Shown here: piece by piece, positions 1-50,400 of the stretch | How positions within the stretch are numbered: position 1 is the stretch's first letter | Layout: every line of letters begins with the position of its first letter | From: Bdellovibrionales bacterium | GTDB lineage: Bacteria > Bdellovibrionota > UBA1018 | Assembly: GCA_018266355.1 (NCBI GenBank) | Contig: JAFEAP010000002.1 | Coordinates: 81,814 to 145,813, forward strand | Direction: 5' to 3' | Length of the DNA: 64,000 bases | Notes under the pieces: generated by a model | The model's database searches: none | The model's input: the letters and a program-made list of their open reading frames with translations, nothing else | What the model was told of the DNA's origin: nothing | Position numbers and translations under genes: made by a program

Positions 1-1
1 A

Positions 2-427
2 GCGGCCCTGGAAAACCTCGCCCCCGAACTCGAGAATACCGCCGCCGCCCTCTCCCTCGCCGAGGAAGGACCGGTCGCCTGCGCGGGCGATCCCCATCGG
101 ATCGAGCAAGTCATCGCGAACCTCGTCGAAAACGCGCTGAAATACGGCAAGGGAAAACCGGTCGAGATTCGTGTTCATTCCGATCGTACTTCGGCGATCC
201 TCGAAGTGCGCGACCGCGGTCCCGGAATCGCGCCGGAAAACCAAAAGCGCATCTTCGGGCGCTTCGAACGCGCGGCGGACGGCACGGGAGTTTCCGGGCT
301 CGGACTCGGTCTCTTCATCGCGTCCGAAATCGTCGCCGCCCACCGAGGCGAGATCTCCCTCACAAGTCGCCCCGGAGAAGGCTCCGTCTTCACCGTGCGC
401 CTGCCGAAAATAGAACCCGAAGGATAA
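2..427 (+). CDS. Sensor histidine kinase, C-terminal ATPase part (5' truncated by window edge)
   Basis: This is the C-terminal 141 residues of a two-component sensor kinase; the sensor and phospho-acceptor regions lie before the window. The HATPase_c domain is complete in its key boxes. The N-box is RIEQVIANLVENALKYG, the G1 box DRGPGIAPE, the F-box IFGRFERA and the G2 box GLGLGLFIASEIV, and the chain ends at the usual beta strand (GSVFTVRLP). The reading frame is open from base 2. The intact ATP-binding boxes indicate a working kinase. No cognate regulator lies downstream; it may precede the window. The signal sensed cannot be told. I am confident in the family but not in the pathway. Confidence 0.9.
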   Translation, partial: AALENLAPELENTAAALSLAEEGPVACAGDPHRIEQVIANLVENALKYGKGKPVEIRVHSDRTSAILEVRDRGPGIAPENQKRIFGRFERAADGTGVSGLGLGLFIASEIVAAHRGEISLTSRPGEGSVFTVRLPKIEPEG

Positions 428-627
428 TTCTTCCCGCGCGATTGGCTTCGGGAGGCATCGCCGCGCCCACGGCCCGGGGTTAGTTTGCCCGCGGGGAAGC
501 GAAAGCGACCCCATTTGCGAGGAAGGCCCGGGCCCGGTGGTCGGGCACGGGCCGCTCGCGATTTCATTCGAGAATTCTTTTTCGGACCCCGCCTTGCGTC
601 ACGCCGATTCGGCGTCATCTTACGGGT

Positions 628-1326
628 GTGTTGAAACGCGTTTTTCGAGAGAACTGGCTCACGCGCGACCCCGCTCATCCGGGGCTCGCGACGACCGTCG
701 CGCTCGCACTCCTTCTCGCCGCCGGCCGGCTCGTCGAGTTTCCGGCGTCGGGCGAACTCGTGTTCGGGCGCGGCGAATATTGGCGCGCGTGGACGACTCT
801 TTTCGTGCACTCCGGTCCGGCCCACCTCCTCTCGAACCTCGTCCTCTTCATCCCCTTCGCTTTCGTCCTGACCGGGTACTACGGATGGTTTCTTTTCCCT
901 TTCCTCGGCTTTCTCGTCGGCGGACTCGTGAACCTCGCCGTGCTCCGGGAAATGCCGGCGGCGATTTCGCTCGTCGGCGCTTCGGGCGTCGTCTACTGGA
1001 TGGGCGCGGTGTGGATCACGCTCGCGATCCTCGTCGATCGGCGCGAACGGCTCGCGCGGCGAGTGTTGAAAGGATTCGGAGTCGCGATGCTCCTCTATTT
1101 GCCCGAGGGCTACCGGCCCGAAGTGAGTTACGTCACCCACCTCTACGGATTCCTCGCCGGGATCGCGTGCGCGGTCCTATACTATTACGCGAACCGCGCG
1201 ACGTTCCGCGCGGCCGAGCGCTACGAATACCGCTACGACTTCGACGCCCACTGGGATCCGCGGCTGAACGGATACGGGCCCGAGCTTCCGGAAGAGGCGC
1301 CTCTCGACGCCGAATCGTTTAAATAA
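628..1326 (+). CDS. Rhomboid family intramembrane serine protease
   Basis: A 232-residue polytopic membrane protein of the rhomboid family, which cleaves transmembrane substrates inside the bilayer. The catalytic serine sits in GASGVVYW, and the partner histidine in VTHLYGFLAG in the last membrane helix. The conserved HxxxN-type segment FVHSGPAHLLSNL is in the second helix. Five to six hydrophobic segments are visible, followed by a charged cytoplasmic tail of about 40 residues. The start is GTG at 628, and no good Shine-Dalgarno lies in front of it. It stands alone between the kinase fragment and a lipoprotein gene, so its substrate cannot be inferred. Family call is firm from the Ser/His pair. 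Confidence 0.88.
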   Translation: MLKRVFRENWLTRDPAHPGLATTVALALLLAAGRLVEFPASGELVFGRGEYWRAWTTLFVHSGPAHLLSNLVLFIPFAFVLTGYYGWFLFPFLGFLVGGLVNLAVLREMPAAISLVGASGVVYWMGAVWITLAILVDRRERLARRVLKGFGVAMLLYLPEGYRPEVSYVTHLYGFLAGIACAVLYYYANRATFRAAERYEYRYDFDAHWDPRLNGYGPELPEEAPLDAESFK

Positions 1327-1484
1327 AATTTCAGCGAATTTCGCTCGGGCTGCATAGGATCGCGCCCGCTAACCGTGTCCTTACTGACGCACTTTTCCGC
1401 CGATAAAAGGTTTCGTACACTTTTTTAAGAGAGTCCGTTCACCCACCTACCTCTGCAGTACGTATCCAGGACGAGGAAAAGGGC

Positions 1485-2702
1485 ATGATTAAAAAAGTCG
1501 CCGTCGTTATCAGTATCGCGCTTTCGGTCTTCGCGTCCGGATGCCTCCAATTAAGAATCGTCCAAGCGGTCGATCCGGAAGCGAGCCAAGTCGGTTCGGA
1601 CCCGTCGGTTTCCGATTACGCATTCTCGATTTCCCAAAACTTTCAGGGGGCCACCGGCTACACGCTTTCCGGATCGGGCGCGAGCGCCACGACTTTCGCC
1701 GTGACGAAAAAGCCGGCCAAGGGGAAAGTCGAATGCCGTGCGGGACTGAAGCGGTCGATCGCTTCGGTTTCCTGGAGCGACTGTTCGAGCGGAAAAGTCA
1801 TCAACGCGTCGGCGGCGGGATTCGCGGGCGCGAGCCAAAGCGGCACCTTCGTGGCCGAAGCGCGCGGAGTCGACTCGAAAGGAAACGTCGTCACCTCCAT
1901 TTCGAAAGATTACTATGTGCATCCTTCGCTGAACGGCGCCGTCGCCTGCAATCCGTCGATGACCGAAGACCAGATCTTCCAAGCCGCAGGGGCGCTCCTC
2001 GACCAATCCGACGTCTTCGGCTCCGGCTCGACCTTCCAGTCCCCGGCGTTCCATATCGAGTCTGCCGACGGACGCGCGGTCGACTTCCATTCGTTTCGCA
2101 AACGGATCGTCATGAACGGAGCGAAAACCCTCATCCTCGTGCGCCGGCGATACGCCTCGGCTAAGGGGGATTGTGATTTCAACGTCGGTAACGCGAGCTA
2201 CCGCTATAAAACGGTGACGGTCGCCCGCCCGAACGGCGACATGTTCTACGCGAACAGTCAGTTCACCTGGGATCACGGAGGCTTCTGGACCAATAGCGGA
2301 AACTACACCAGTACGAACACCAACATGGCCGCCAGCAACCCCACGGGATGGGCAGATTTCCAAACGCAGAGCCACTTCAGCGTCGACCATTGGTATCGGA
2401 AAAGGAACGCGTTATGGAATCAGGGCGAGCATTGCTCCGCGCTCGTCCTGAACGCCCGCGGGCGCGGCGTCTGCATCGAAGCGGGAACCGGGCAGGCCTT
2501 CAACCTCGCCCATATCGGAGTGATGGCGAACTTCCGCGACCGCGGTACCCGTATGTTCTCGCAAAAAGTCGAAGTCGCCTCGACGGCCGAAGCGACGAGC
2601 CTCGGTGCGGACGCTTCGCTTCGTAAACAAGTGATCGGGTGGGACCCCGGCATCGGCGCCTACGGTCCGGTCGAACTATACAAGATCTATTTCGAAGACT
2701 AA
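1485..2702 (+). CDS. Lipoprotein of unknown function
   Basis: A 405-residue predicted lipoprotein. The signal peptide ends in the lipobox FASGC, with the lipidated Cys at residue 20. An SD-like GAGGAAAAGGG precedes the ATG. The first ~140 residues look like a beta-rich, Ser/Gly-rich region. The C-terminal ~250 residues contain scattered cysteines (for example CNPS, GDCDF, EHCSAL, GVCIE) consistent with disulfides in an exported domain. I do not recognise the family. It lies 136 bp upstream of the reverse transcriptase, so I checked it as a possible DGR target. No copy of its 3' end is visible between the genes, so I do not call it one. Envelope location is inferred from the lipobox. Confidence 0.8.
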   Translation: MIKKVAVVISIALSVFASGCLQLRIVQAVDPEASQVGSDPSVSDYAFSISQNFQGATGYTLSGSGASATTFAVTKKPAKGKVECRAGLKRSIASVSWSDCSSGKVINASAAGFAGASQSGTFVAEARGVDSKGNVVTSISKDYYVHPSLNGAVACNPSMTEDQIFQAAGALLDQSDVFGSGSTFQSPAFHIESADGRAVDFHSFRKRIVMNGAKTLILVRRRYASAKGDCDFNVGNASYRYKTVTVARPNGDMFYANSQFTWDHGGFWTNSGNYTSTNTNMAASNPTGWADFQTQSHFSVDHWYRKRNALWNQGEHCSALVLNARGRGVCIEAGTGQAFNLAHIGVMANFRDRGTRMFSQKVEVASTAEATSLGADASLRKQVIGWDPGIGAYGPVELYKIYFED

Positions 2703-2838
2703 GATCGATCCAGGGAGTCCGCGCTAACGTCCACCCTGCGGGGAGGACGGGCGGCCTCGGTCGCACAAACCAAGAATCTACACCCGACGGGCTAGGTTCA
2801 ACTTCGCGCGGCTCCCGCTTTTTCTTGTCTGGAGCCTG

Positions 2839-4026
2839 ATGCAACCCTTCCCCCGATCGAGGGATTTCCTTCGCCAAATTGCGCATTCGGACTCGTCGCG
2901 AATCCTCGATTGGATCCGTACGCTTCCGTTCGCCTCCTGGACGAGCGAAATTTATCGCGCGACTCTCGATAAAGATCGCGACCTCGTGCGTTTGCCGGAC
3001 TCGATTTACTTAGCCGAAAAAGCCCTCGCGCTCGACCTCGAATCCCGAATTGAGCCGCGCCTTCCCGATGCGCTCTGCTCGTTCAGAAAGGGAAGGTCCG
3101 CCGAGGAAGTCATCCGCGATTTCGCGTCGCTCGGAGCGGCTCACGGTAAGGCTCCGCTCTTCGTCCTCCGTCGCGACGTCGAAAATTACACCGACTCGAT
3201 CCCGCTCGGGGATCACGCACCGCTTTGGCGGTTACTCGCCGATTTCGGAGTGCCCGAAAGGGACGTCGAGGCGATTCGGACTCTCCTTCGGGCGCCCGTC
3301 CGCGCGAGAGGCAGCGACCGGGAATTTTCCCGATCGGTCGGCATTTCGACCGGATCTTCCCTCACTCCTCCGATCGCCAATCTCTATTTAAACTCGCTCG
3401 ACCTCGCGGCCCTCGGCGTTCCGGGCGCTTTCTACCGCAGGTACGGAGACGATTTCGTGTTTGCCCATTCGGAGAAAGAAGTCGCCGCGAGTTTCGCCGC
3501 TAGGATTCCCGGGATTCTTAAACCCCTCGGCCTAAGGGAGAAGACGGAAAAATCAGCCGACCTCGCCTGGACGAGCCGCGGAGGACCCGCGTCGACCGCA
3601 CGATTCGAGGAGCGGCAGTACGTCGATCTCCTCGGCATACGGGTGCATCGGTCGCGAGGTCCTCGGCTCCCCCCGAAGAAAATGAAGGCGCTTCTCGAAC
3701 GGTTCCGCCTGAGGATGCGCATCGTTCGCGACGAAGTCCCGAACGAATCGTCCGACTCGCGCGCCTACCGCCTCTGCCGAGCGGCCGAGACGCAATTCGG
3801 TCCCGGTCAGTTCGGCCAAGACCCGTCTTTCCGCCGGATGCGGGCCCTTTGCACGGACCCGGGCGCCTGGCGGGAATTCGACCGCGAGGTCTGCGGGACG
3901 ATCGCGCTGCTCGCGGCCGATCGCCCATTGCCTTACGCCTTTCGCGACTACTCGCCTCGGGATTTGATCCGACGATTCGGGTTCCGTCCTCCGGGCCATC
4001 TTTGGGGCGCATATGGGTCGCGGTGA
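2839..4026 (+). CDS. Reverse transcriptase-domain protein of unassigned class
   Basis: A 395-residue RNA-directed DNA polymerase. In order it shows an RT1-2 region (LVRLPDSIYLAEKAL then SFRKGRSAEEVI, residues 50-92), motif A with Asp113 in LRRDVENYTDSI, motif B VGISTGSSLTPPIANLYL (167-184), and the catalytic YGDD at 202-205 (RRYGDDFVFAH). A YVDLLGIRVH strand follows at 261-270, then a helical C-terminal domain of ~120 residues that may be a thumb. All catalytic aspartates are present. It lacks the retron NAxxH and VTG signatures, the DGR-type SQ in motif B, and maturase or HNH endonuclease domains. GGAG precedes the ATG. The stop overlaps the next start by 14 bp, so the two genes are probably translated together. 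Likeliest a member of the unassigned or defence-type bacterial RTs; its function is unknown. Confidence 0.88.
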   Translation: MQPFPRSRDFLRQIAHSDSSRILDWIRTLPFASWTSEIYRATLDKDRDLVRLPDSIYLAEKALALDLESRIEPRLPDALCSFRKGRSAEEVIRDFASLGAAHGKAPLFVLRRDVENYTDSIPLGDHAPLWRLLADFGVPERDVEAIRTLLRAPVRARGSDREFSRSVGISTGSSLTPPIANLYLNSLDLAALGVPGAFYRRYGDDFVFAHSEKEVAASFAARIPGILKPLGLREKTEKSADLAWTSRGGPASTARFEERQYVDLLGIRVHRSRGPRLPPKKMKALLERFRLRMRIVRDEVPNESSDSRAYRLCRAAETQFGPGQFGQDPSFRRMRALCTDPGAWREFDREVCGTIALLAADRPLPYAFRDYSPRDLIRRFGFRPPGHLWGAYGSR

Positions 4027-5746
4027 GACGGTTCAATCGAAAATCGACTTCCTCATCGAGCGGCGGGAGAGCGCGATTCCGCCTTCCTATCTCGAAAGTC
4101 TCGCTTTCCCCGGACGCGCGTTCGCGCGAAGGAGCCTGCGCGCGTTCGCCCTGATCAGCATCCGCGGCGGAGTGCATTTCATTCGCTTTTGGATCGTCGC
4201 GAACGCGTTTCCCGGCCTTGAACTTTCCGATCTCGCGACTTGGCTGCTCGGACTCGGTCTGATCGAGGCCGCGGTCGCGGGAGCGCTCGAACCGCTTCGC
4301 GAGGCCATGCGAAATCACCGAGGATCGCCGGGAAGCGGAATACTGACCGAATCGCGACGGTGGAATCGGCGGATCGCGATCCTGAATTTCGTTCTCGGCG
4401 CTTACTGGTTTCATCGTCACGGGTGGGCCCTTCTCACGTCGGACCGGGTCTTCAGCATATTCGACGCCGTTCGCATCATTTCGCTCTTTCGTCTCGCCTG
4501 CGGCCTCGCTCTTCTTCCGGAAACCGCATTGGTGCAGGGAAGGACGCGTTCGCACGTCGGAGGAAAAACACTCTACGGCGTCGAGGCCCTTTCGATCGCC
4601 GGCTTGCCTCCCCTCATCCTCCTTTTCGGTCCCTGGGGCGTGGCCGCGCATTTTCTTTGGGAGGCGGCGGTCCGCGAGGGAGCGCGCGCCTGGATTCTCC
4701 TCCGAACCGAACGCGATCTCGGATGGCCCCATGCCTGGTTTCGCTGGCCGCGAAAAGGGCGTTCCGAACCGACCGCGCTTTCGTTCCCGCCGTGGCTCGG
4801 CGGTGCGATGCGGATCGCCTTTCGCGCCGAAGCGTGGCTGCTGCCGTTCCTGTGGAAACACGGCGACGCGCGAGTCCTGGTCTTTTTTCTTCCTTGGATC
4901 CGGGGGCTCACCGACCTCCCGAAGGTTTTCGAGTTCGATCTCCTTCGAAATCGATTTCGGATCGACTCGCGAGTCGCGGGGGAGACTCTCCGCCGGCTCT
5001 TTCCCGCGATGACCGCCGCGATCTGCCTGACGGTCGTTCTCCTCGAACTCGCGGCCCGTTTCATTCTAGGCGAGTCGCTCGGTCGGTCCGAGTGGATCGC
5101 GATCGCCGCTTGCGGCTCGATCGGAATCCTGAACGGCTACCTCGTCAGCCGAGTCTGGCGGCGAGTGCGAAGCCGCGCCGCGGCCGCCTCTTCCGCCGCG
5201 AGACGAGTCTACGAAATCCCTTTTCTCTCGGGGCCCGACGCGTCCGAAGGACGGAACGCCCTCGTCTCCCACCCGGAACGTTTTGGGGCCCGACGCTCCG
5301 TTCGATTCGGCCGCCGATCCGCGCTCGTCGAAATCGAAGGAGATCCGGAGGCCGGCCTTTCGCGCCTCCGGGGTCGCCTCCCGGGTCTTACGTTCGCCGC
5401 GATTCATCGCGATCCTCGCGCCTTGGACCGCGAATACGCCGAACTCGTCCGGGATTGGACGGGAGCTTGGTCCCGTCTGCGATCGGTCGCGACGGACTCC
5501 CGCGAAGCGGGCGCGGCGCTACTCGCCTGGCCGGGATTCGTCGCCGGACTCTATGAACGCGGCGAGAACGCGGAGCGCACGCCGGACCGCCGATTCCTCT
5601 TTTTCTGGAATCCCGCGAATCCGCATGCGTTCGAATTCCTGCTCGTTCCGCGCGAACGACTCCCCGATGCCGCCTACGTGAAGGCGTCCGCGCGGGCGAT
5701 TGCCCGAGCCGAGGCGGCGCTCAAGTTCAGCAACCCGGAATCGTGA
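4013..5746 (+). CDS. Polytopic membrane protein coupled to the reverse transcriptase
   Basis: A 577-residue protein I cannot assign to a family. Roughly residues 40-380 contain about eight hydrophobic segments, for example around 41-65, 73-95, 117-140, 187-218, 328-352 and 357-381. Arg-rich loops lie between them. The layout loosely recalls MOP-type flippases, but no family motif is recognisable. A soluble C-terminal part of about 180 residues follows (from RRVYEIPFLSG onward). The ATG lies inside the end of the RT gene in another frame and the genes overlap by 14 bp, which is strong evidence of co-expression. The 3' end overlaps the convergent vWA lipoprotein gene by 20 bp. An effector or membrane anchor for the RT is possible, but that is inference. 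Confidence 0.75.
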   Translation: MGRGETVQSKIDFLIERRESAIPPSYLESLAFPGRAFARRSLRAFALISIRGGVHFIRFWIVANAFPGLELSDLATWLLGLGLIEAAVAGALEPLREAMRNHRGSPGSGILTESRRWNRRIAILNFVLGAYWFHRHGWALLTSDRVFSIFDAVRIISLFRLACGLALLPETALVQGRTRSHVGGKTLYGVEALSIAGLPPLILLFGPWGVAAHFLWEAAVREGARAWILLRTERDLGWPHAWFRWPRKGRSEPTALSFPPWLGGAMRIAFRAEAWLLPFLWKHGDARVLVFFLPWIRGLTDLPKVFEFDLLRNRFRIDSRVAGETLRRLFPAMTAAICLTVVLLELAARFILGESLGRSEWIAIAACGSIGILNGYLVSRVWRRVRSRAAAASSAARRVYEIPFLSGPDASEGRNALVSHPERFGARRSVRFGRRSALVEIEGDPEAGLSRLRGRLPGLTFAAIHRDPRALDREYAELVRDWTGAWSRLRSVATDSREAGAALLAWPGFVAGLYERGENAERTPDRRFLFFWNPANPHAFEFLLVPRERLPDAAYVKASARAIARAEAALKFSNPES

Positions 5747-6518
5747 CGAGATCGTCGATCGCGAGCCCGCCCTGGTCGAGGTGATTCGTATCGACGAACT
5801 GACCCCCGCCCTGTTCGGCCATCGTGCGAAGATTCCGGATCGAAGTCGCGTCCGAACCCGATCCGAAATAGACGGTGCTCACCGTGAGGTGGCTCTTCCC
5901 GTTCGCGGCCGCCGTTTGGCGGAGGTTCGTCACGAGCGAGGCGAGGCGGTTCGTGACGTCGCTGTCGATATCGGTCGGCTGACCGTCGGACATGAAGACG
6001 ACGGCGTAGTCCTGCGCGCTGCCCCCGGCCTCGTCGCGAGTGACGGCCGCCGAGAGCGCCGAAAACGCTTCGCCGTAGGCCGTGTTCCCGCTCGGCGGGA
6101 TCGAGGCGTGGTAGGTGTCGAGCGCCGCGCCGATCTGGGTTGCCGAACCGAACGGCACGCTCGCGTCGTGCTCGCGGAAAGCGGTGCTGCCGACGTCGTA
6201 GAGGTAACCCGCGTCGTCGAAGTAGCCGAAACCGTAACTCAGGTTCGCGTGCGAACCGTACGCGGCGAGGAAGGTCCGAAGCGTCTGCACGCGGTAGGTC
6301 TGGCTCGGGTCGGTGCTATCGGTCGAACCGGAGTTATCGACCATGACGAGGATCCGAAGCGGCCGCGAAGTCGAACCCGCGGTGCATCCCGGGTCGATCT
6401 GACCGGACCTTCCGCTCACCTGGAATTCGGCGGGCGCCTTTCCGCAGCTGTGGGCCGCGAACGCGAAAAGCGCGATCGAAACGAAAGTACGGAAACCCCG
6501 AAGGGTAGCGGTGTTCAT
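5727..6518 (-). CDS. vWA-domain lipoprotein
   Basis: A 263-residue exported protein with a von Willebrand factor A fold. A hydrophobic signal segment ends in AAHSC, making Cys25 a plausible though non-ideal lipidation site. The MIDAS metal site is visible as DNSGST (Asp61, Ser63, Ser65) and FMSDGQPTD, with a threonine in SGNTAYGEAFSAL between them. vWA domains of this kind bind protein or glycan ligands through the metal. AGGAGG lies 6 nt before the ATG. The gene converges on and overlaps the RT-linked membrane protein gene by 20 bp. Whether that neighbourhood is functional is unknown. The domain call is secure; the ligand is not known. Confidence 0.85.
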   Translation of the reverse strand: MNTATLRGFRTFVSIALFAFAAHSCGKAPAEFQVSGRSGQIDPGCTAGSTSRPLRILVMVDNSGSTDSTDPSQTYRVQTLRTFLAAYGSHANLSYGFGYFDDAGYLYDVGSTAFREHDASVPFGSATQIGAALDTYHASIPPSGNTAYGEAFSALSAAVTRDEAGGSAQDYAVVFMSDGQPTDIDSDVTNRLASLVTNLRQTAAANGKSHLTVSTVYFGSGSDATSIRNLRTMAEQGGGQFVDTNHLDQGGLAIDDLVTIPGC

Positions 6519-6633
6519 CGAGAACCTCCTAAGCCGAGCAAGGAGACCCTGAAAGAGCGGTCTATACTCGACCTATCGGCCGATGGAGAATTGACCTGAC
6601 GAAATTACGCCCGACCGCGTCGGTCCGTCAAAA

Positions 6634-7476
6634 TCACGCCACGCGTGTGTAGCGTTTCACCGAGGTTCGGATCTCGTCCTCGGTCTTCACGTGCAAGTCG
6701 TGCACGAGGCCGAAGACTTCGAGGAACTTGATGAAATAGAACCCGAGGTCGATCTGGAGCGGACGAAGCCCGAGCTTCGCGTTCCGCGGCCACGCGTGGT
6801 GATTGTTGTGCCAGCCTTCACCGAACATCAGCGCCGCGAAGAAGCGATTGTTCCTCGAGTCGTCCTGCGTATCGAAGGGACGGTCGCCGTAAACGTGGCA
6901 GAGCGAGTTCACGAAGAACGTCAGGTGCCACGAGACGATCGTCGGCACGAAGAATCCCCAAGTCACTCCGCTCCATCCCGCCCACGCGTAAAGGAGCGCG
7001 CCCTGGGAGAGGAAAAGGATCGGAATCCACCGATCGAGCACGCGGAGTTCGCGCGGCCATTCGCCGCGCAGGGCATTCTCCCCGTCGCGCGATTCGGGCG
7101 TGGCGTCCTTGAAAAGCCACCCGAGGTGCGCGTGGTAAAAACCGTCGACCCTCGGCGAGTGCGGATCGCCTACCTTGTCGGTGTAACGGTGGTGCGTGCG
7201 GTGCCGATAAACCCACCAGCTCGCGGTCCCTTGGCCGGCGAGCCCGCCGAAGAGCGCGAGCAGGAACGCGACCGGGCGCGAGGTCTTGAACGACTCGTGC
7301 GTGAAGTACCGGTGATAACCGACGGTGATGCCGAATCCGCGGATCGTGTAGAGTGCGAGGCCGACGATCGCCGTGGGCCAGGTAAGCGGCGCGGTCACGA
7401 TCCCGTAGATCGCGACCACGTGGAAAACGGGGATGCCGATACGGTAGGTCCAGGGCGTGCGGTTCAGCGCGATCAT
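6634..7476 (-). CDS. Acyl-CoA/acyl-lipid desaturase (delta-9 type)
   Basis: A membrane di-iron fatty acid desaturase that introduces a cis double bond into an acyl chain, adjusting membrane fluidity. The three histidine boxes are intact: HRYFTH, HRTHHR and GWHNNHH. Four hydrophobic segments are arranged as in the SCD/DesC family, and the length (280 residues) is typical. I place the start at the ATG with GAGGG just upstream (7476). An in-frame ATG at 7494 would add six residues (MGESRA) but has no SD. It is a single gene, divergent from rlmG. A short CCGAC/GTCGG hairpin follows the stop on the minus strand. Confidence in the family is high; acyl-CoA versus phospholipid substrate cannot be decided. 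Confidence 0.92.
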   Translation of the reverse strand: MIALNRTPWTYRIGIPVFHVVAIYGIVTAPLTWPTAIVGLALYTIRGFGITVGYHRYFTHESFKTSRPVAFLLALFGGLAGQGTASWWVYRHRTHHRYTDKVGDPHSPRVDGFYHAHLGWLFKDATPESRDGENALRGEWPRELRVLDRWIPILFLSQGALLYAWAGWSGVTWGFFVPTIVSWHLTFFVNSLCHVYGDRPFDTQDDSRNNRFFAALMFGEGWHNNHHAWPRNAKLGLRPLQIDLGFYFIKFLEVFGLVHDLHVKTEDEIRTSVKRYTRVA

Positions 7477-7564
7477 CGCCCTCGATTCTCCCATTCGCCC
7501 GAAACGGCCGGTATCGGAAAGTTTTTGACGTCACGGCGGCCGGACTGCTACCCGTGGGACGGTC

Positions 7565-8695
7565 ATGACGCCCCTTTTCGAAACCGGCTTCGGCCACGCG
7601 CTGAAGCTCGCCCGCTATCCCGAACGGAAGCACGAAGAGCTCCAAGCCTTCGACGCCGCCGACTCGCTCCTGCTCGAAGAACTCGCCTCCGACCGACCGG
7701 CCCTCGCCGATAAACGGATCCTCGTCGTCGGCGACGCGTTCGGCGCCCTTTCGGTTCCGCTCGCGACCTACGGCGTGACGACCTACACGGACTCGTTCAG
7801 CTCCGCCCGCGCGATCGCGCGCAACGCCGACCGGAATCCGAGCGAGACGAAGTCCACCCCGCGGATCGTCCACCGCCTCGCCGACCTCGAGGGTCCCTAC
7901 GACCTCGTCCTCCTCCGTCCGCCGAAAAACCTCGCGTACCTCGAGGACCTCCTCGCGACGCTCTCGTCGAAACTCGCGCCGGGTGCGCGCCTCGTCGCGG
8001 GGGTGATGGTGAAACACCAATCCGACGGCGCGTTCGAACTCCTCGAGCGGCTCGTCGGGCCGACGCGGACGAGTCTCGCGAAAAAGAAAGCGCGGCTCAT
8101 CTTCGCCGATTTCGTTCGAGCGCCCTCCGTTTCCCCGTTCCCTCGGGACGTCCGGCTCGACGGATTCGACCGTCCTTTCCATCACCCCTCGAACCTCTTC
8201 AGCCGCGAGCGCCTCGATATCGGGACGCGATTCTTCCTCGAACACCTGCCCGCGGGCGACGCCCGCTCGATCCTCGACCTCGGTTGTGCGAACGGAATCG
8301 TCGGCATCGCGGCCGGGCGAATGCATCCCGCCGCGCGCGTGACCTATACGGACGACTCCTGGATGGCCGTCGAGAGCGCGAAGGAGAATCACGCGCGTTT
8401 CGGAGAAGGCCGCGAGGCCGACTTCGCGTGGACGAACGCGTACGAGGACGGCCCGGACGAGGCGCACGACCTCGTGCTCTGCAATCCGCCTTTCCATCAG
8501 GGCACGACGGTCGGCGACCAGATCGCGGGCGCGATGTTCCACCAAGCCCACCGCGTGCTCCGCCCGGGCGGGCGTCTGCGCGTGATCGGCAACGCCCACC
8601 TCGGCTATCCGGCGCGCCTCGCGCGGATCTTCGGCGGGATCGAGCCGGTCGCCCGGAACGCGAAGTTCACCGTCGTCGACGCGATCAAACGCTAG
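7565..8695 (+). CDS. rlmG: 23S rRNA (guanine-N2) methyltransferase RlmG-like
   Basis: A 376-residue SAM-dependent methyltransferase with the duplicated Rossmann architecture of the RlmG/RsmC group. The degenerate N-terminal domain contains DKRILVVGDAFGALSVPLA. The catalytic C-terminal domain has the SAM motif ILDLGCANGIVGIAA and the NPPFHQG active-site motif typical of guanine-N2 enzymes. The segment LDIGTRFFLEHLP before motif I and the ending NAKFTVVDAIKR match E. coli RlmG, which modifies G1835 of 23S rRNA. Start is ATG at 7565. A TTGACG (7525) lies upstream with a poor -10. It is divergent from the desaturase gene. RsmC is the alternative; length and end motifs favour RlmG. Confidence 0.85.
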   Translation: MTPLFETGFGHALKLARYPERKHEELQAFDAADSLLLEELASDRPALADKRILVVGDAFGALSVPLATYGVTTYTDSFSSARAIARNADRNPSETKSTPRIVHRLADLEGPYDLVLLRPPKNLAYLEDLLATLSSKLAPGARLVAGVMVKHQSDGAFELLERLVGPTRTSLAKKKARLIFADFVRAPSVSPFPRDVRLDGFDRPFHHPSNLFSRERLDIGTRFFLEHLPAGDARSILDLGCANGIVGIAAGRMHPAARVTYTDDSWMAVESAKENHARFGEGREADFAWTNAYEDGPDEAHDLVLCNPPFHQGTTVGDQIAGAMFHQAHRVLRPGGRLRVIGNAHLGYPARLARIFGGIEPVARNAKFTVVDAIKR

Positions 8696-8703
8696 AACGG
8701 CGC

Positions 8704-9894
8704 TTACTTGCTGGCGTCCGCCCGCGACGGGATATCTTCCATGAGCCGAATCGCTTCCTCGCCCCAGCGCCGCTCGAAAACCGCGCGCGAAGTCTCGAGA
8801 ATCGCGCGCGTCCCCGGCGCGGCCACCGCGTCCGCGTAGGCGGGCTTCGTCTCGGGGAGTTCCCGGAATTCCGGCCGACGCGCGAGCATCCCCGCTAGGC
8901 CGCGACCGTACGCGAACGTCCCCGGCTGCTTCGTCCACGCGTCGGCGAGCGCGACGAAGAGTTCCGGCGCGTCTTCCGCGCCGGCGATCGCCTCGCCCCA
9001 CGCGTCGAAGAACGGCGCGGTCGGAACGACGAACTCGGCGCGCGCGCGCAGCCCGCGCGGCTTCCGGAGCGCGAAATGACGGTGATTCTCGATCGCCATC
9101 GAACTCCCGTCGATCTTCGATTTATAGAGCTCGCCCGCGACCCAAAGCCGACCGAGATGACGGAGCTTCCCCTCCGTGTCGAAGGGCTTCGCGCCGAGCT
9201 TGTAGTACGCGAGCCGCAGCGGATCGCCCGGCCCGAGCTCCCACATGTCCATCACGCGGTCGAGGTCGCCGAAGTTGTGCGCGATCGAAGCGGAGGCTTT
9301 CAAGCAACCGACGCCGTCCTTCGCGCGCCAGAGCGATCCGAAGATCTCGGAGTGCCGATTCACCTCGTCCCCGATCGCGGCACGGAGTTCCTCGCGTTTC
9401 GCGACGGCGGCCGGGTCCGCATACCGGCCGAACGCCCCGTAGGCGCCGCACGCGACGGTGAACCATTCGCCGAGGTGTCCGCTGAGCGTTTCCCTTTCCC
9501 ACGGCGTCCCCTTCGCCCCGCGGACGAACCGGGTCGAGACGAGCGTGAAATCCCACTTCCGGGAGGCGAGGACGAAGTCGGCCATCGCGAGGGCGGTCTC
9601 AAGCGGAAGCCCCGCCGGCCAGAGCTTCTGGCGGATCTGGTTATCCACGTCGGTCGGCACGGGAGTGCCGCACGAGAGGTAGTGCGACGAAAGGCAGAGT
9701 GCGAAATAGTCGAAGTGATCCGCGACTTCGTCCGGGACCGAGCTCGCGGCGTAGGCGCGTAGCCGATCGGCGGGGGGAAAACCCGTGAACGCGTCCGGTC
9801 CGGCCGCGAACAGGTAGGGCATCGTGTTCCGGACCTGGGAAACGAGCAGGTCGGGAGCGATCCCGCGCGGAAATGGCGTCTTCCCTTTCGTCAT
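8704..9894 (-). CDS. Conserved-looking protein of unknown function
   Basis: A 396-residue, apparently cytoplasmic protein with no signal peptide or membrane segment. I do not recognise a family. It is rich in Trp, Tyr and aromatic clusters (HFDYFALCLSSHYLSCG, GLRARAEFVVPTAPFFDAWG), suggesting a compact globular, mostly helical fold. Two motifs catch the eye: SIAHNFGDLDRVMDMWELG and ENHRHFALRKPRG. A strong GGAGAGGG lies just before the ATG, which fixes the start. Its 3' end lies 8 bp from the convergent rlmG stop. It is divergent from the DUF4336-like gene, with a perfect CCCCGG/CCGGGG palindrome between them. Coding status is supported by the SD and frame length; function is not proposed. Confidence 0.75.
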   Translation of the reverse strand: MTKGKTPFPRGIAPDLLVSQVRNTMPYLFAAGPDAFTGFPPADRLRAYAASSVPDEVADHFDYFALCLSSHYLSCGTPVPTDVDNQIRQKLWPAGLPLETALAMADFVLASRKWDFTLVSTRFVRGAKGTPWERETLSGHLGEWFTVACGAYGAFGRYADPAAVAKREELRAAIGDEVNRHSEIFGSLWRAKDGVGCLKASASIAHNFGDLDRVMDMWELGPGDPLRLAYYKLGAKPFDTEGKLRHLGRLWVAGELYKSKIDGSSMAIENHRHFALRKPRGLRARAEFVVPTAPFFDAWGEAIAGAEDAPELFVALADAWTKQPGTFAYGRGLAGMLARRPEFRELPETKPAYADAVAAPGTRAILETSRAVFERRWGEEAIRLMEDIPSRADASK

Positions 9895-44276: not shown

Positions 44277-44481
44277 CCCTCGCGACCGACATAGGACCTC
44301 GGTTTCCCTGTGAAAAAACGATTTTTTCGGGAGTCGTTCACCCTACGCGCATATAGGCGCCCTACGCGGAAGCGTGTCATCGCGGACGCATTCTAAAGGG
44401 GCAAGATTTCGCCGACAATTCAAAGAGGGCCCTCCGTTTCTTAGGAGACGGCTTTCGATTTAAACAGAGGTACGTCGGTTG
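44277..44481. other. Intergenic leader of the giant lipoprotein gene
   Basis: A 205-bp gap with an A-T hairpin (GAAAAAA at 44312-44318 with TTTTTTC at 44322-44328), a 9-bp direct repeat CCCTACGCG (44341 and 44360), and a GAGGGCCCTC palindrome (44425-44434). The hairpin may end the preceding transcript. The direct repeats flank a TATAGG and could be activator sites. No ORF is supported. Confidence 0.45.
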
Positions 44482-47400
44482 ATGAATCGAATCCTTTCCC
44501 TCACCAGGGAATTTCGCGTGCGCGTTTTCCGGGCGACGAACGTCCTCGGAATGGTCGCGCTCGCCTCGACGGGATGCTCGACGAAGATCCAGCAACTCTC
44601 CGGATTCCGTTCCGCCGTCGGATTCTCCACGCTGACCCGCGACCTCCCGCTCGTCGATTTCGGGGACATCACGGTGCACGCCCACTCCGCCTCGCGGTCG
44701 GTGGTGTTCAGGAACGAGACGGTCGCGGGCCAGGGCTCGGGAGCCGTCACTTGCGGCAGCCCGACCCTCGAGGATCCTCTCGATTTCCAGATCGATTCGT
44801 CGGACTGCGGCGGTTCCCTCGCGGTGAATGGCACCTGCACGGTGACCGTCTCGGCCGCGCCCGGAACCCGGGGACTCCTCGAAGGTGATCTGCGCCTCGC
44901 CTGCTCGGACGCCCTCGGATCGACCCAAACGATCTCGAGTCGGCTCCGCGTGAACGGAGTCGAAATCGTACTCGCCGTGAACCCGGACCAATACGATTTC
45001 GGCGCGGTGAAGGTCGGAACGAACTCCGCGAACCAGAACTTCGTCTTCTCGAACTCCGGGAATCTCGCGGCGACCGGGTGCTCCGCGCCGGTCCTCAGCG
45101 ACAACACGAACTTCACCGTCGTTCCGGGCACATGCGGAACGAACGATCTCATCGCGGGCGGGAGCTGCACGGTCGCCGTCCACGCGAATCCGACGGTCAC
45201 CGGGGCCGCGTCCGCCACGCTTTCCCGGACTTGCACCGTCGGCGGCACGATCGCGACCCTCACGAACCAAGTCGTCGTCACGGGCGTGACTCCCGTGATG
45301 GCGTGGAACCCACTGACCTACGCGTTCGGGAACGTCCCGGTCGGGTCGAACTCCGCGACCCAGACGTTCACCCTCTCGAACACGGGCGGCGCCGCCGCGA
45401 CCGGATGCTCCGCCCCGACGATCAGCGACGCGACAAATTTCACCATCATGACCGACCTTTGCGGAACGAGCGACCTCGCCGCGCTCACGGGAAGCTGCAC
45501 GGTCACCGTGCAGGCGAACCCGACGACCGCCGGCGCGAAGAGCGCGACGCTGAGCCGGAGTTGCAGCTACGGCGGCTCCGTCTCGACGACCGCGAACCAG
45601 ATCACGGCCTTCGGCGCGACGGCCAGCCTCGCGTGGACCCCGCTCACGAAGGATTTCGGCGACGTGAACGTCGGCTCGAACTCCACGACCCAAACGTTCA
45701 CCCTCACGAATTCCGGCACCGCCGCAGCGACCGGGTGCTCCGCTCCGACGATCGGCGACGCGACGAACTTCTCGATCACCGCCGACACCTGCGCGACGAA
45801 CGACCTCGCCGCTTCGGGCGGAAGCTGTACGGTGACCGTGCGCGGAAATCCGGCGTCGGCGGGAGCGAAGGCGACGACGCTTTCCCGCGCTTGCGCCTTC
45901 GGCGGCACGGCGGCGACCACGTCGAACCAGATCGTCGTGAACGGCGTCGTCGCCCTACTCGCGTGGTCGCCTCTCACGAAGGATTTCGGAAACGTTTCGG
46001 TCGGCTCGAACTCCACGACCCAAACGTTCACCCTCACGAATTCGGGCGGTTCGACCGCCACCGGCTGCTCGGCCCCGACCTTGACCGACGCGACGAACTT
46101 CTCGATCGTAACGGATAACTGCGGCACGGCGAACCTCGCCGGATCGGGAGGGACCTGCACCGTCGACGTGCGCGCAAACCCGGGCTCGATGGGCGCGAAG
46201 TCGACGACGCTTTCCCGCGCTTGTACCTTCGGCGGCACGGCGACGACCACGCCGAACCAGATCGTCGCCCTCGGCACCCAAGTCGACCTCGCCTTCGACC
46301 AGCTCACCTACGACTTCGGGACGGTGAACGTCGGTGCGAACTCGGCGAACCACGTCTTCACCCTCCAGAATCTCGGAAATCAAGCGGCGACGGGATGCGC
46401 GGCGCCGGCGCTCTCGAACGCGACCGACTTCGAGATCGTTTCGGAGACCTGCGGCACCGCGGACGTCGCCGCCTCCGGCTCCTGCACGGTGACCGTTCGA
46501 GCGATTCCCCAATCCTCGGGCGCGAAGGCGACCACGCTTTCCCGGACCTGCGCCGTCGGCGGCACCCCCGCCACGACGACGAACGGCCTGACCACGAACG
46601 CCGTCCAACCCTCGCTCGCCTGGTCCCCGATGACGAAGGACTTCGGAAACGTGAACGTCGGCTCGAACTCCTCGACCCAGACGTTCACCCTCACGAATTC
46701 GGGCACGGCCACCGCAACCGGGTGTTCGGCGCCCACCCTCGCGGGCACGGATCCTTCCGAGTTCACGATCGTCACGGATAACTGCGGAACGGCGACCCTC
46801 GCTGGCTCGGGCGCGACGTGCACGGTCGATGTGCGTGCGAACCCGGGCTCGACCGGAACGAAGTCCGCGACGCTCTCTCGGACTTGCACGTTCGGCGGGA
46901 CGCCGACGACCACCCCGAACCAGATCGTCGTGACCGGGGTCGCGCCTTCGCTGGTTTGGAGCCCGCTCACGAAGGACTTCGGAAACGTGAACGTCGGCTC
47001 GAATTCCTCGACCCAGACGTTCACCCTCACGAACTCCGGCACGGCCACCGCGACCGGGTGCTCGGCGCCGACCCTCGGCGGCACGAACGCGGGCGAGTTC
47101 TCGATCGTCACGGATAACTGCGGAACGGCCAACCTCGCCGGCTCGAACGCGACCTGTACCGTCGACGTCCGCGGCCACCCGAGTTCGGCCGGTACGCTGA
47201 CCGCCACCCTTTCACGCACCTGCACCTTCGGCGGCACCGCCTCCACGACGACCGACCAGATCGTCGTGAACGGGATCGCGCCCTCCCTCGTTTGGAGCCC
47301 ACTCACGAAAGATTTCGGGAACGTGAACGTCGGCGGCTCCTCGGCCCTCGTCTTCACCCTCACGAACTCCGGCGCCGCGGCGGCGACCGGTTGCTCGGCA

Positions 47401-50400
47401 CCGACCCTCACGAATTCGACCGACTTCACGCTCGCGAACGACCTCTGCGGTACGGCGGATCTCGCCGGCTCGAACGCGACCTGCACGATCCAAGTGCGCG
47501 CGACCCCGGCCTCCGCGGGGATAAAGACGACCACCCTTTCGCGGACCTGCACTTTCGGCGGCGTCGCGGCCACGACGACCGATCAGATCGTCGTGAACGG
47601 TCAGTATCCGAGCCTCGCGTGGACTCCGACGACGTACGACTTCGGGAACGTCGACGTCGGCGCGAACTCCTCGACTCACACCTTCACTCTCACGAATGCC
47701 GGCAACGGGACCGCGACCGGATGCTCGGCTCCCGTCCTCGGCGGATCGAACGCCTCCGATTTCTCGATCGTGACGGATAACTGCGGAACGGCGAACCTCG
47801 CCGGTTCGAACACGACCTGCACCGTCGACGTACGGGCGAACCCGGGATCGATCGGTGCGAAAGGAGCGACGCTCTCGCGCACGTGCGGATTCGGCGGTAC
47901 GGCCTCGACGACGACCGACCAGATCGTCGCGACGGGCGTCTATCCGGCGCTCGCCTGGTCGCCGCTCACGAAGGACTTCGGAAACGCCTACGACGGCACG
48001 GACTCGGGAACCCAAACGTTCACCTTCACGAATTCCGGCACGGCGACCGCGACCGGGTGCTCGGCGCCTTCCCTCGCCGGGACGAATCCGGGAGAGTTCG
48101 TCATTTCGAGCGACGGCTGCGGTACGAACACCCTCGCCGGCTCCGGCGCGACCTGCACGGTCGTCGTGAAGGGCCACCCGAACTCGGACGGGGTGAAAAC
48201 GGCGACCCTCACTCGCTCCTGCACCTTCGGCGGATCCGCCTCCACGACCGCCGATCAACTCGTCGTGAACGGGATCTCGGCGGTCCTCGCTTGGACGCCG
48301 TTGACGAAGAGCTTCGGCGACGCCACCGTCGGCACCGATTCGGGAACGCAGACGTTCACCCTCACGAATTCCGGTACCGCCTCCGCGACCGGCTGTTCGG
48401 CCCCCGCGCTCGGCGGAGCGAGCCCGGGCGAATTCGCGATCACGACGGATAATTGCGGCGTGGCCGACCTCTCCGGCGGGGGCGCGACCTGCACCGTCGT
48501 CGTGAAAGGCCATCCGACCTCGACCGGGACCAAGACCGCCACGCTCTCCCGCACCTGCACGGTCGGCGGAGCCCCGGCGACGACGACGAACGGCATCTCG
48601 GTGAACGGCGTCTACCCCGCCCTCGCCTGGTCTCCGCTCACGAAGGCTTTCGGTTCGAACGCCTACGCGTACGGCCAAAGCGCGAGCGTGACTTTCACCT
48701 TCGCGAACACGGGCACCGGTCCCGCGACGGGATGCTCGGCTCCGACGCTGACTGGAACCGATCCCTCCCAGTTCGAGATTTCGATCGATAACTGCGGCAC
48801 GTCCGATCTGGCGGTCGGAGCGTCGTGCACGGTGAACGTGCGGACGAAGATTTCCTCGGCCGGCGCGAAGGCGGCGACCCTTTCCCGCACCTGCACAGTC
48901 GGCAACACCACGACGACTACGGCGAACCAGATCACCGCCACCGGCACGGCGAACGCACCGAACCTCGCGGTGACCGCGGCCTTCGACCAGGACTCGAACC
49001 GCCTGAAAATCGCACAGAACGGATTCGGAACCGCCGTCGAAGACGTCGTTTTCGGGAACTCCGGAACCGCGGACGCCACCGGCTGCGCGGCCCCGGTCTT
49101 GGGCGGCACGAACCCGAGCGAGTTCCTGATCGTCTCCCATACTTGCGGCTCGACCTTGGCAGCCGGCGATCACTGCACGGTGAGAGTCCGCGGGAAACCG
49201 ACGAGCACGGCGACCCGGAACGCCACGATTTCGATGGCCTGCTCCGTCGGCGGCACTCCGAGCCTCTCATTGAAGACGATCGGGAACGGCACGACCACGC
49301 CAAGCCAGATGAGCCTCGGCGGTTACGCCTCTCTCATCCGCATGTCGAACGGAAGCATCGTCCAGACCGGTGGAGTCTTTCCGAATAATTCCTCCGTGCT
49401 CGACTCGGGAACGACCGCGACCCAAGTCGCGACCGGCACCGACTTCGCCTGCGCCCTCCGCACAGGCGGCACCGTGAAATGCTGGGGCAGCAACACCTAC
49501 GGCCAACTCGGCGACGGAACGAACAATAGCGCTGCCTTCCCCGGCGTGACGGTCTCGGGATTGAGCGGGATTCTAGCCATCGGGACGGGTACGGGTTCCC
49601 AGCACGCCTGCGCGGTCCGCTCGGACAACACGGTCGTCTGCTGGGGACGCGGCGATTCCGGCCAGCTCGGGAACGGCGGGACCGCGAACAGCAACGTGCC
49701 CGTCGTCGCGACGGGAGTCACCCAAGCCACCCAGGTCACGGCGAACCCGAACGCGACCTGCGCGCGCACTTACAGCGGCAGCGGGATGGTTTACTGCTGG
49801 GGCCAGAACAATTACGGCCAACTCGGGAACGGAACGACGACCAACTCTTCCACTCCGGTCCAGGTCCTCGTGAGCGCGGGCACGAGCCTCCAGAACGCCG
49901 TGAACGTGAACATGGGTTTTACCGGGACGGCTTGCGTCGCGATGGCGGACGGGACCGCGAAGTGCTGGGGCGCGAACAGTTACGGTTTCCTGAGCGGCTC
50001 GAACAAGAAGTACGCGACGACCCTCCCGAGCATTGCGAACGTAACCACGGTACAAATCGGGTTCACGAACGTCTGCGCTCTAATCTCCGACGGGACGGTG
50101 AAGTGCTGGGGCGAAAGCGGCATGGGCGAAAACGGCGACGGCACCAATACGCCGCGCGCGTCGGCCTCGAACGCGGTCACGGTGACGGGTCTCGCCGGCG
50201 CGACGGCCCTCTACGGCGACGGCTGGCAGGGATACTGCGCGGTCCGCTCGGACAACTCGGTCATGTGCTGGGGACTACGAAACCGCTCGAAGGGTGACGG
50301 CGGCATCGCGAGCAGTAACGCGACCGCGACTCCCCTCCCATCCCTCTCGAATGTGACGCAGGTCACGGGCACCTCGAGCGGCAACTGCGCGCTGATCTCC

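Follow-up and report, generated by a model that had tools for sequence, protein, structure and literature searches.

Outside mobile introns, bacterial reverse transcriptases (RTs) have proved to be defence, mutagenesis or repair machines, and most are identified through the genes and RNAs that accompany them. Here, an RT locus was analysed in a 64,000-nucleotide window from a Bdellovibrionales bacterium (assembly GCA_018266355.1, contig JAFEAP010000002.1, positions 81,814 to 145,813, forward strand). At window positions 1485-5746, four parts were found, i.e., a predicted lipoprotein gene, a structured RNA of ~104 nt, an RT gene, and a membrane-protein gene overlapping the RT gene. The nearest described arrangement is DRT10, a UG17 RT with a non-coding RNA (ncRNA) and a SLATT membrane protein. 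According to the available part of its description, all three are needed for defence, and membrane proteins are also mentioned there for other DRTs (PMC12632851). Retron RTs are defined, in the accessible text of PMC6868368, by NAxxH in region X and VTG in region Y, although two of 16 validated retrons were without exact NAxxH. Diversity-generating retroelements (DGRs) with lipoprotein targets are described from Legionella and Treponema in the available portion of PMC8867640, and UG4 RTs are given as associated with fimbrial genes at 66% in that of PMC8934634.

As far as the available description of DRT10 goes, the locus shares with it a short structured RNA beside the operon, an intact RT, a fixed membrane-protein partner, and three or more parts. 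In contrast to DRT10, the membrane protein has a MOP-transporter-like predicted fold instead of SLATT, an extra predicted lipoprotein is present, the RNA is placed before the RT gene and not before the membrane gene, and the locus is known from sequence. It is quite possible, although the proposal is tentative, that the four-part locus works like a retron or DRT system, i.e., that an RNA-templated cDNA would control a membrane effector. An earlier reading of the same DNA, made from its letters and called here the sequence-only reading, had named an intact RT and an overlapping 577-residue membrane protein. Both open reading frames (ORFs) and their 14-base overlap (4013-4026) were confirmed, and this overlap suggests translational coupling. 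The extent given there covered these two genes correctly and lacked the predicted lipoprotein gene at 1485-2702 and the RNA at 2713-2816.

The linkage of the genes was searched in relative genomes (G numbers), whose loci were read (L numbers), i.e., 55 genomes at order level and 58 at class level for the RT profile. G048, G052, and G047 are in the window's order, and G030 is in its family. By single-sequence search with the RT, 10 of the 58 genomes were matched at E 1e-5. The 14-row RT profile at E 1e-30 found 13 places in 11 of the 58 genomes; 11 rows were at E 2.2e-123 or better, two contig-end fragments were at 3.5e-48 and 1.2e-34, and other RTs started at 1.4e-29. At E 1e-20, 17 of the 55 order genomes were matched. 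Neighbourhoods were read at 11 of the 12 other places, and for the twelfth (G051, L039) on the upstream side only.

The membrane-protein gene was found downstream of the RT on the same strand in all 11 places where the contig continues, the window included (one copy is cut at a contig end). In the remaining two places, the contig ends within the RT gene. Among the eight places with clear starts (L024, L026, and L028 excluded), seven show an overlap of the two genes of 4-14 bases, and L022 has a gap of 18. The membrane-protein profile matched 10 of the 58 genomes, all of them RT genomes and always at the RT. Because both recur side by side in relatives, e.g., at 33-46% identity in G048, G052, and G030, the RT and membrane ORFs are not chance ORFs. 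By profile search, 8 of the 13 RT places, in 7 of the 58 genomes, have a lipoprotein relative, and none was found elsewhere in these genomes. The naive odds of 7 lipoprotein and 10 membrane-protein genomes among 11 RT genomes were 1e-6 and 2e-10, with kinship ignored and with profiles built from the same loci. In the genome contig set, relatives were found in 6 of 42 pattern stretches, i.e., five contigs of Bdellovibrionales metagenome-assembled genomes (MAGs) and, as a different kind, one protein with two RTs. The sequence-only reading had made co-occurrence a check of its new RT-membrane protein system, and that proposal is supported, with the genes adjoining wherever the contig allowed it and the RT falling outside the group II and DGR RTs.

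The RT gene (2839-4026, forward strand, 395 amino acids (aa)) was recognised by Pfam RVT_1 at E 2.3e-11, and no second domain was recognised in the protein. Its catalytic residues are intact, i.e., motif A Asp113, motif B GISTGSSLTPPIANLYL, and YGDD at 202-205; the Asp113, TGSSLTPPIANLYL, and YGDD of the sequence-only reading are all present. In the 14 family RTs, D113, G168, G172, S173, N181, Y199, R201, G203, D204, and D205 are invariant. The family motif B is GxPTGSxLTPxxANLYL-like, with [Y/F]GDD, and the Tyr of YGDD is replaced by F in 2 of the 14. The window's genome gave one RVT_1 match at E 1e-5. In a 5.8-billion-protein database, where ~8000 word-sharing candidates were scored for each of the RT, the membrane protein, and the lipoprotein, the RT had five matches, itself included. 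Three metagenome proteins, P0002-P0004, are in the RT survey.

The RT tree was comprised of the 14 family RTs, 4 DGR RTs, 4 group II RTs, three rows of a different kind (P0005 and the two L054 halves), and AbiK. The family RTs were one side of a branch in 200/200 bootstrap trees, with AbiK, which has a very long branch, uncounted. The branch parting them from the DGR and group II RTs had moderate support (82/100). Of the comparison with known RTs, unknown-group (UG) ones included, that the sequence-only reading had proposed, this tree covers the DGR and group II rows and AbiK. As a separate observation, L054:3035-5509 (Anaerolineales MAG contig JAUVHF010000076.1) encodes an 824-aa protein with two tandem RT domains, and the single RT P0005 is near it in the tree.

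The sequence-only reading had seen no retron, DGR, or group II features, and this was borne out. By regular expression (regex), the retron motifs NAxxH and VTG were found in 0/14 and 1/14 (P0003) family RTs. The SQ of DGR motif B was found in 0/14, by a regex that found 3 of 4 DGR references and missed BPP-1, and no template/variable repeat pair was found in window 1-9000, L020, and L021. No Rfam family, group II intron RNA included, was found at gathering score in the 64-kb window. The best NCBIfam match of the RT was group_II_RT_mat at 60.6 bits against a cut-off of 300, whereas the control L070 reached 404 bits. By model scores and motifs, group II and retron membership of the RT were rejected. 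In PADLOC, the best UG model was RT_UG26 at 47.7 bits (a model without curated cut-off); UG4 gave 43.7 bits, and UG17, the group of DRT10, only 31.8 bits. All 14 family RTs matched many UG models, and the UG4 model matched all 14 at E 0.001 or better. The locus also shares with UG4 RTs the position beside envelope genes, but the score of the window RT is low and the partners here are not fimbrial.

For the gap at 2703-2838, folding gives an RNA that is closed and multibranched (2713-2816, forward strand). It has a closing stem (GGGAG-(U bulge)-CCGCGC / GCGCGGCUCCC), hairpin H1 at 2728-2749, hairpin H2 at 2751-2764 with a 4-nt loop, and a predicted hairpin H3 at 2774-2799. The 3' half is A-richer and is a candidate template. 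The minimum free energy of the RNA core was -50.3 (z -3.33), and 0/500 shuffles were as low. The boundaries of this core were chosen from the fold, and among 1072 window stretches with comparable GC, 21 reach an equally low value.

A covariance model, R1, was built from L018 and L019 only, and the search with it covered 12 sources with 221 kb in all. Four matches were obtained at E up to 10, i.e., the two parents, window 2714-2815 (30.3 bits, E 4.8e-4), and L027 (27.6 bits, E 0.0021), the last two both directly before the RT. A structure-free control model from the same alignment found the parents only and missed the window. In the four RNA sequences, 98.6% of cells pair and two-sided changes occur in 11 of 19 pairs, which 0/500 shuffles reach, whereas slid versions pair at 40-50%; the alignment was fitted to the structure, so these pairing figures lean upward. 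The covarying RNA suggested in the sequence-only reading was found in this gap. A further model, R2, was searched in the 58 genomes at E 0.01 (strict filters, 71 candidates scored per genome) and found only its own four training loci, all before a family RT. The RNA is unproven for 9 of the 13 places because R2 reaches only 4.

In the corresponding gaps of other loci, the sequence of the closing stem differs and its form stays the same, with 11 bp in L018 and L019, 9 in L021 and L024, 13 in L023, and 8 in L027. A perfect closing stem as strong was found in 1, 1, 5, 6, 0, and 11 of 200 shuffles for L018, L019, L021, L024, L023, and L027, in the order reported. Over all 11 loci, the closing stem against shuffles gave a Fisher value of 5e-5. 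With retrons, the locus has in common a partner gene and, immediately before the RT gene, an RNA closed by a long stem; by covariance model this upstream ncRNA is present at four loci.

The membrane-protein gene (4013-5746, forward strand, 577 aa) was studied by structure model (mean pLDDT 72) and structure matches. The protein has a MOP-transporter-like membrane domain at ~24-390 and a predicted cytoplasmic C-terminal domain at ~395-577. About 10 long helices are seen in the model, in place of the ~8 counted in the sequence-only reading. The predicted fold is MATE/WzxE/MurJ-like, of the MOP superfamily, and in Foldseek the lipid III flippase WzxE came closest (E 1.2e-4). The structure matches are consistent with a MOP fold for the membrane domain. 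In contrast to MOP superfamily members, the model has ~10 long helices where 12-14 helices are expected, Foldseek TM-scores by query length are 0.40 or less, identity is 6-12% in VIA rows, and an extra ~180-residue C-terminal domain and the RT linkage are present. At E 1, no Pfam match was found, and the same holds for PADLOC, NCBIfam, and PHROGs; in the protein database, the protein matches itself only. The sequence-only reading, which had called the C-terminal domain unassigned, lacked the predicted MOP fold of the protein. Loop charges agree with the predicted cytoplasmic side of this domain, where it could meet the RT.

The upstream gene (1485-2702, forward strand) encodes a predicted lipoprotein of 405 aa. 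An ASGC lipobox-like site at residues 17-20 is followed by an Ig/Fn3-like domain at ~38-150 and by the Cys-containing C-terminal domain of the family (structure model, mean pLDDT 66). By regex, the lipobox-like site was found in 8 of 10 family proteins, the window included; the second copy of L018 has SMAC, which the regex missed, and L022 has none. Lipid anchoring is thus predicted. The family is 364-1422 aa long because the N-terminal part varies, from short to >1000 residues, with Ser-Gly repeats, coiled coil, HYDIN/ASH Ig-like, or PD40 repeats. The middle region is poorly conserved. The C-terminal domain is kept, and C84, C155, C230, R205, R221, and others are invariant in 10 rows. One protein was found by database search.

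The lipoprotein place differs among relatives. Two tandem copies are present in G048 (L018:11350-13690), with 267 of 385 aligned residues identical and dN < dS in all five segments. In G030, the gene is on the opposite strand, just past the membrane-protein gene. L022 (G043) has a secreted coiled-coil protein in the lipoprotein place, which aligns weakly and was missed by the profile. The third RT subclade (G045, L026:1-650; the second place of G052, L028:7422-8243; G051, L039:93-842) has, instead of the lipoprotein gene, a divergent one whose product is predicted to be a coiled-coil protein anchored in the membrane. The locus of G054 is cut off upstream of the RT.

By analogy with retron and DRT systems, the RT would bind the RNA and is predicted to copy part of it into DNA, with the A-rich 3' half serving as the putative template. 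The RNA-DNA complex at the cytoplasmic domain of the membrane protein would hold this protein off, or would set it off on envelope disturbance. The lipoprotein, as the outer part, would sense or relay an envelope event, and as the outcome a phage or another attacker may be arrested or excluded. If this is true, cDNA control of a transporter-fold protein would be a new effector class in RT immunity. The parts of the locus are small enough for direct laboratory testing.

Several points weigh against the control of a membrane effector by cDNA. MOP proteins are transporters, and we know of no role for them as RT effectors. R2 does not find the RNA in eight other loci (L025 is without upstream sequence). 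The closing stem is not above shuffles in the window (118 of 200, where the bulge breaks the stem), L020 (58), L022 (50), L026 (64), and L028 (156). No unusual fold was seen in the 200 nt before the RT in L024, L026, L027, and L028, nor clearly in the window. No retron or DRT model of NCBIfam reaches its cut-off for the RT (Drt3a 33.8 of 200 bits; Drt2 23.5 of 390 bits). The 88 neighbour ORFs showed ordinary Pfam families (trypsin, cytochrome oxidase, thiolase, MurJ), with no integrase or transposase, among the best 25 of 83 families. No family relatives were found in viral contigs, plasmids, and phages at the sensitivity used, beyond distant RTs. The RNA could also be a cis-regulatory leader of the operon, as considered below.

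It is somewhat unlikely, though reasonable to consider, that the RT and RNA serve a surface structure, i.e., that the MOP-fold protein flips or exports a product that is lipid-linked or a polymer, with the lipoprotein as surface stalk or adhesin. The two protein partners are each predicted to belong to the envelope, the flippase WzxE is the nearest structural match, and the variable N-terminal parts of the lipoprotein before its kept C-terminal domain are stalk-like. UG4 RTs beside fimbrial genes are a precedent in the available text of PMC8934634. However, no glycosyltransferase or polymer gene is fixed beside the three genes among the best 25 of 83 Pfam families, and the patchy presence (11/58) fits a core structure less well. 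With an envelope role, if true, reverse transcription would gain a new use; to our knowledge, there is no precedent for an RT that acts in export.

Clearly unlikely is a cis-regulatory leader, an attenuator or riboswitch-like RNA of the RT-membrane operon, with the RT copying something else. The RNA lies directly before the RT start, a T-run follows the closing stem in the window (TTTTT, 2819-2823, forward strand), L023, and L024, and G030 keeps the genes while the model finds no RNA there. Against this, the terminator scan does not flag the window T-run, and the RNA, multibranched and closed by a long stem ahead of the RT, recalls RT-bound RNAs. The four R2 matches, which are its own training set, are all before a family RT and nowhere else in the 58 genomes.

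Two further explanations are very unlikely. A domesticated group II-like RT could act in RNA processing or in the repair of DNA, and the envelope genes could be its neighbours by chance or for regulation. The best NCBIfam match is group_II_RT_mat, and among the PDB sequence matches are GsI-IIC and group II intron-like 4 RTs, but the NCBIfam score is far under its cut-off. Chance neighbours are argued against because the membrane protein follows the RT in 11/11 testable places. It is just as improbable that the RT writes DNA for the cell surface. In this case, the RT would copy its RNA at the inner membrane, the flippase-like partner would carry the cDNA, or something that bears it, to the other side, and the lipoprotein would display it outside. 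Such display or export of nucleic acid, if true, would be unlike any known bacterial use of reverse transcription. Among the matches listed in the literature searched, mostly outside subscription papers, no RT was paired with a flippase-like or MOP partner or with this lipoprotein.

That the RT is a DGR variant diversifying the lipoprotein is extremely improbable, and this reading was rejected since no template/variable pair was found, the SQ motif is absent, and the tandem lipoproteins of L018 are under purifying selection. The order of target, RNA, and RT recalls BPP-1 and the lipoprotein-targeting DGRs, of which two are said to exist in the available text of PMC8867640, and the middle region of the lipoprotein varies. 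In contrast to those DGRs, the scan of window 1-9000 and L018-L021 gave no repeat pair in the window, L020, and L021, and the repeat matches in L018 and L019 fall inside tandem lipoprotein copies and a Ser-Gly repeat gene. No second copy was found in the window's genome, where short matches only were seen (best 24 bp, E 0.0045). Compared with its own lipoprotein gene, the RNA region of a locus was never above the best of the RNA regions of 8 other loci (9/9 loci, one tie). In the window ORF list, no further same-strand gene, such as Avd, lies between the lipoprotein and RT genes except a 66-aa mechanical ORF, with no search aimed at Avd. As a separate observation, a DGR-type RT with an IGNLTSQ motif is encoded at L042:1444-2484 (G037), in a genome of the window's order.

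Carriage by phages, plasmids, or viral contigs was rejected. In viral contigs, 2 patterns gave 21 stretches, none with the RT family; the lipoprotein was not found in viral contigs (12 stretches) or plasmids, and the membrane protein was not found in phages or plasmids. By tblastn, the RT had 2 distant plasmid records, both annotated group II, and 4 distant phage records, i.e., two of Vibrio phage VP58.5 with an annotated DGR Avd gene, the phiARM81mr RT with an SQ motif, and one unannotated.

PADLOC on the 88 neighbour ORFs gave 42 models; among the matches listed, mad3 was the best (6.5e-55), followed by PDC-M37B, PDC-S04, SoFic, and DolB. A defence island is neither shown nor excluded because these matches are not tied to genes. 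On 41 window ORFs, 85 models were matched, and one ORF strongly matched PD-T4-6 models (E 2.9e-67); we take it to be probably a Ser/Thr kinase. The GC content at third codon positions of the three genes (0.74, 0.70, and 0.71) hints at later acquisition because it is under most other window ORFs, i.e., 32 of 42 other listed ORFs, mechanical ones included, are above 0.75. A VWA-like protein was predicted at window 5727-6518 by sub-cut-off Pfam matches; the window's genome has a paralogue of it at G000:C13:39562-40221, and G001 has two relatives. A 2631-aa ORF was found at window 44479-52374.

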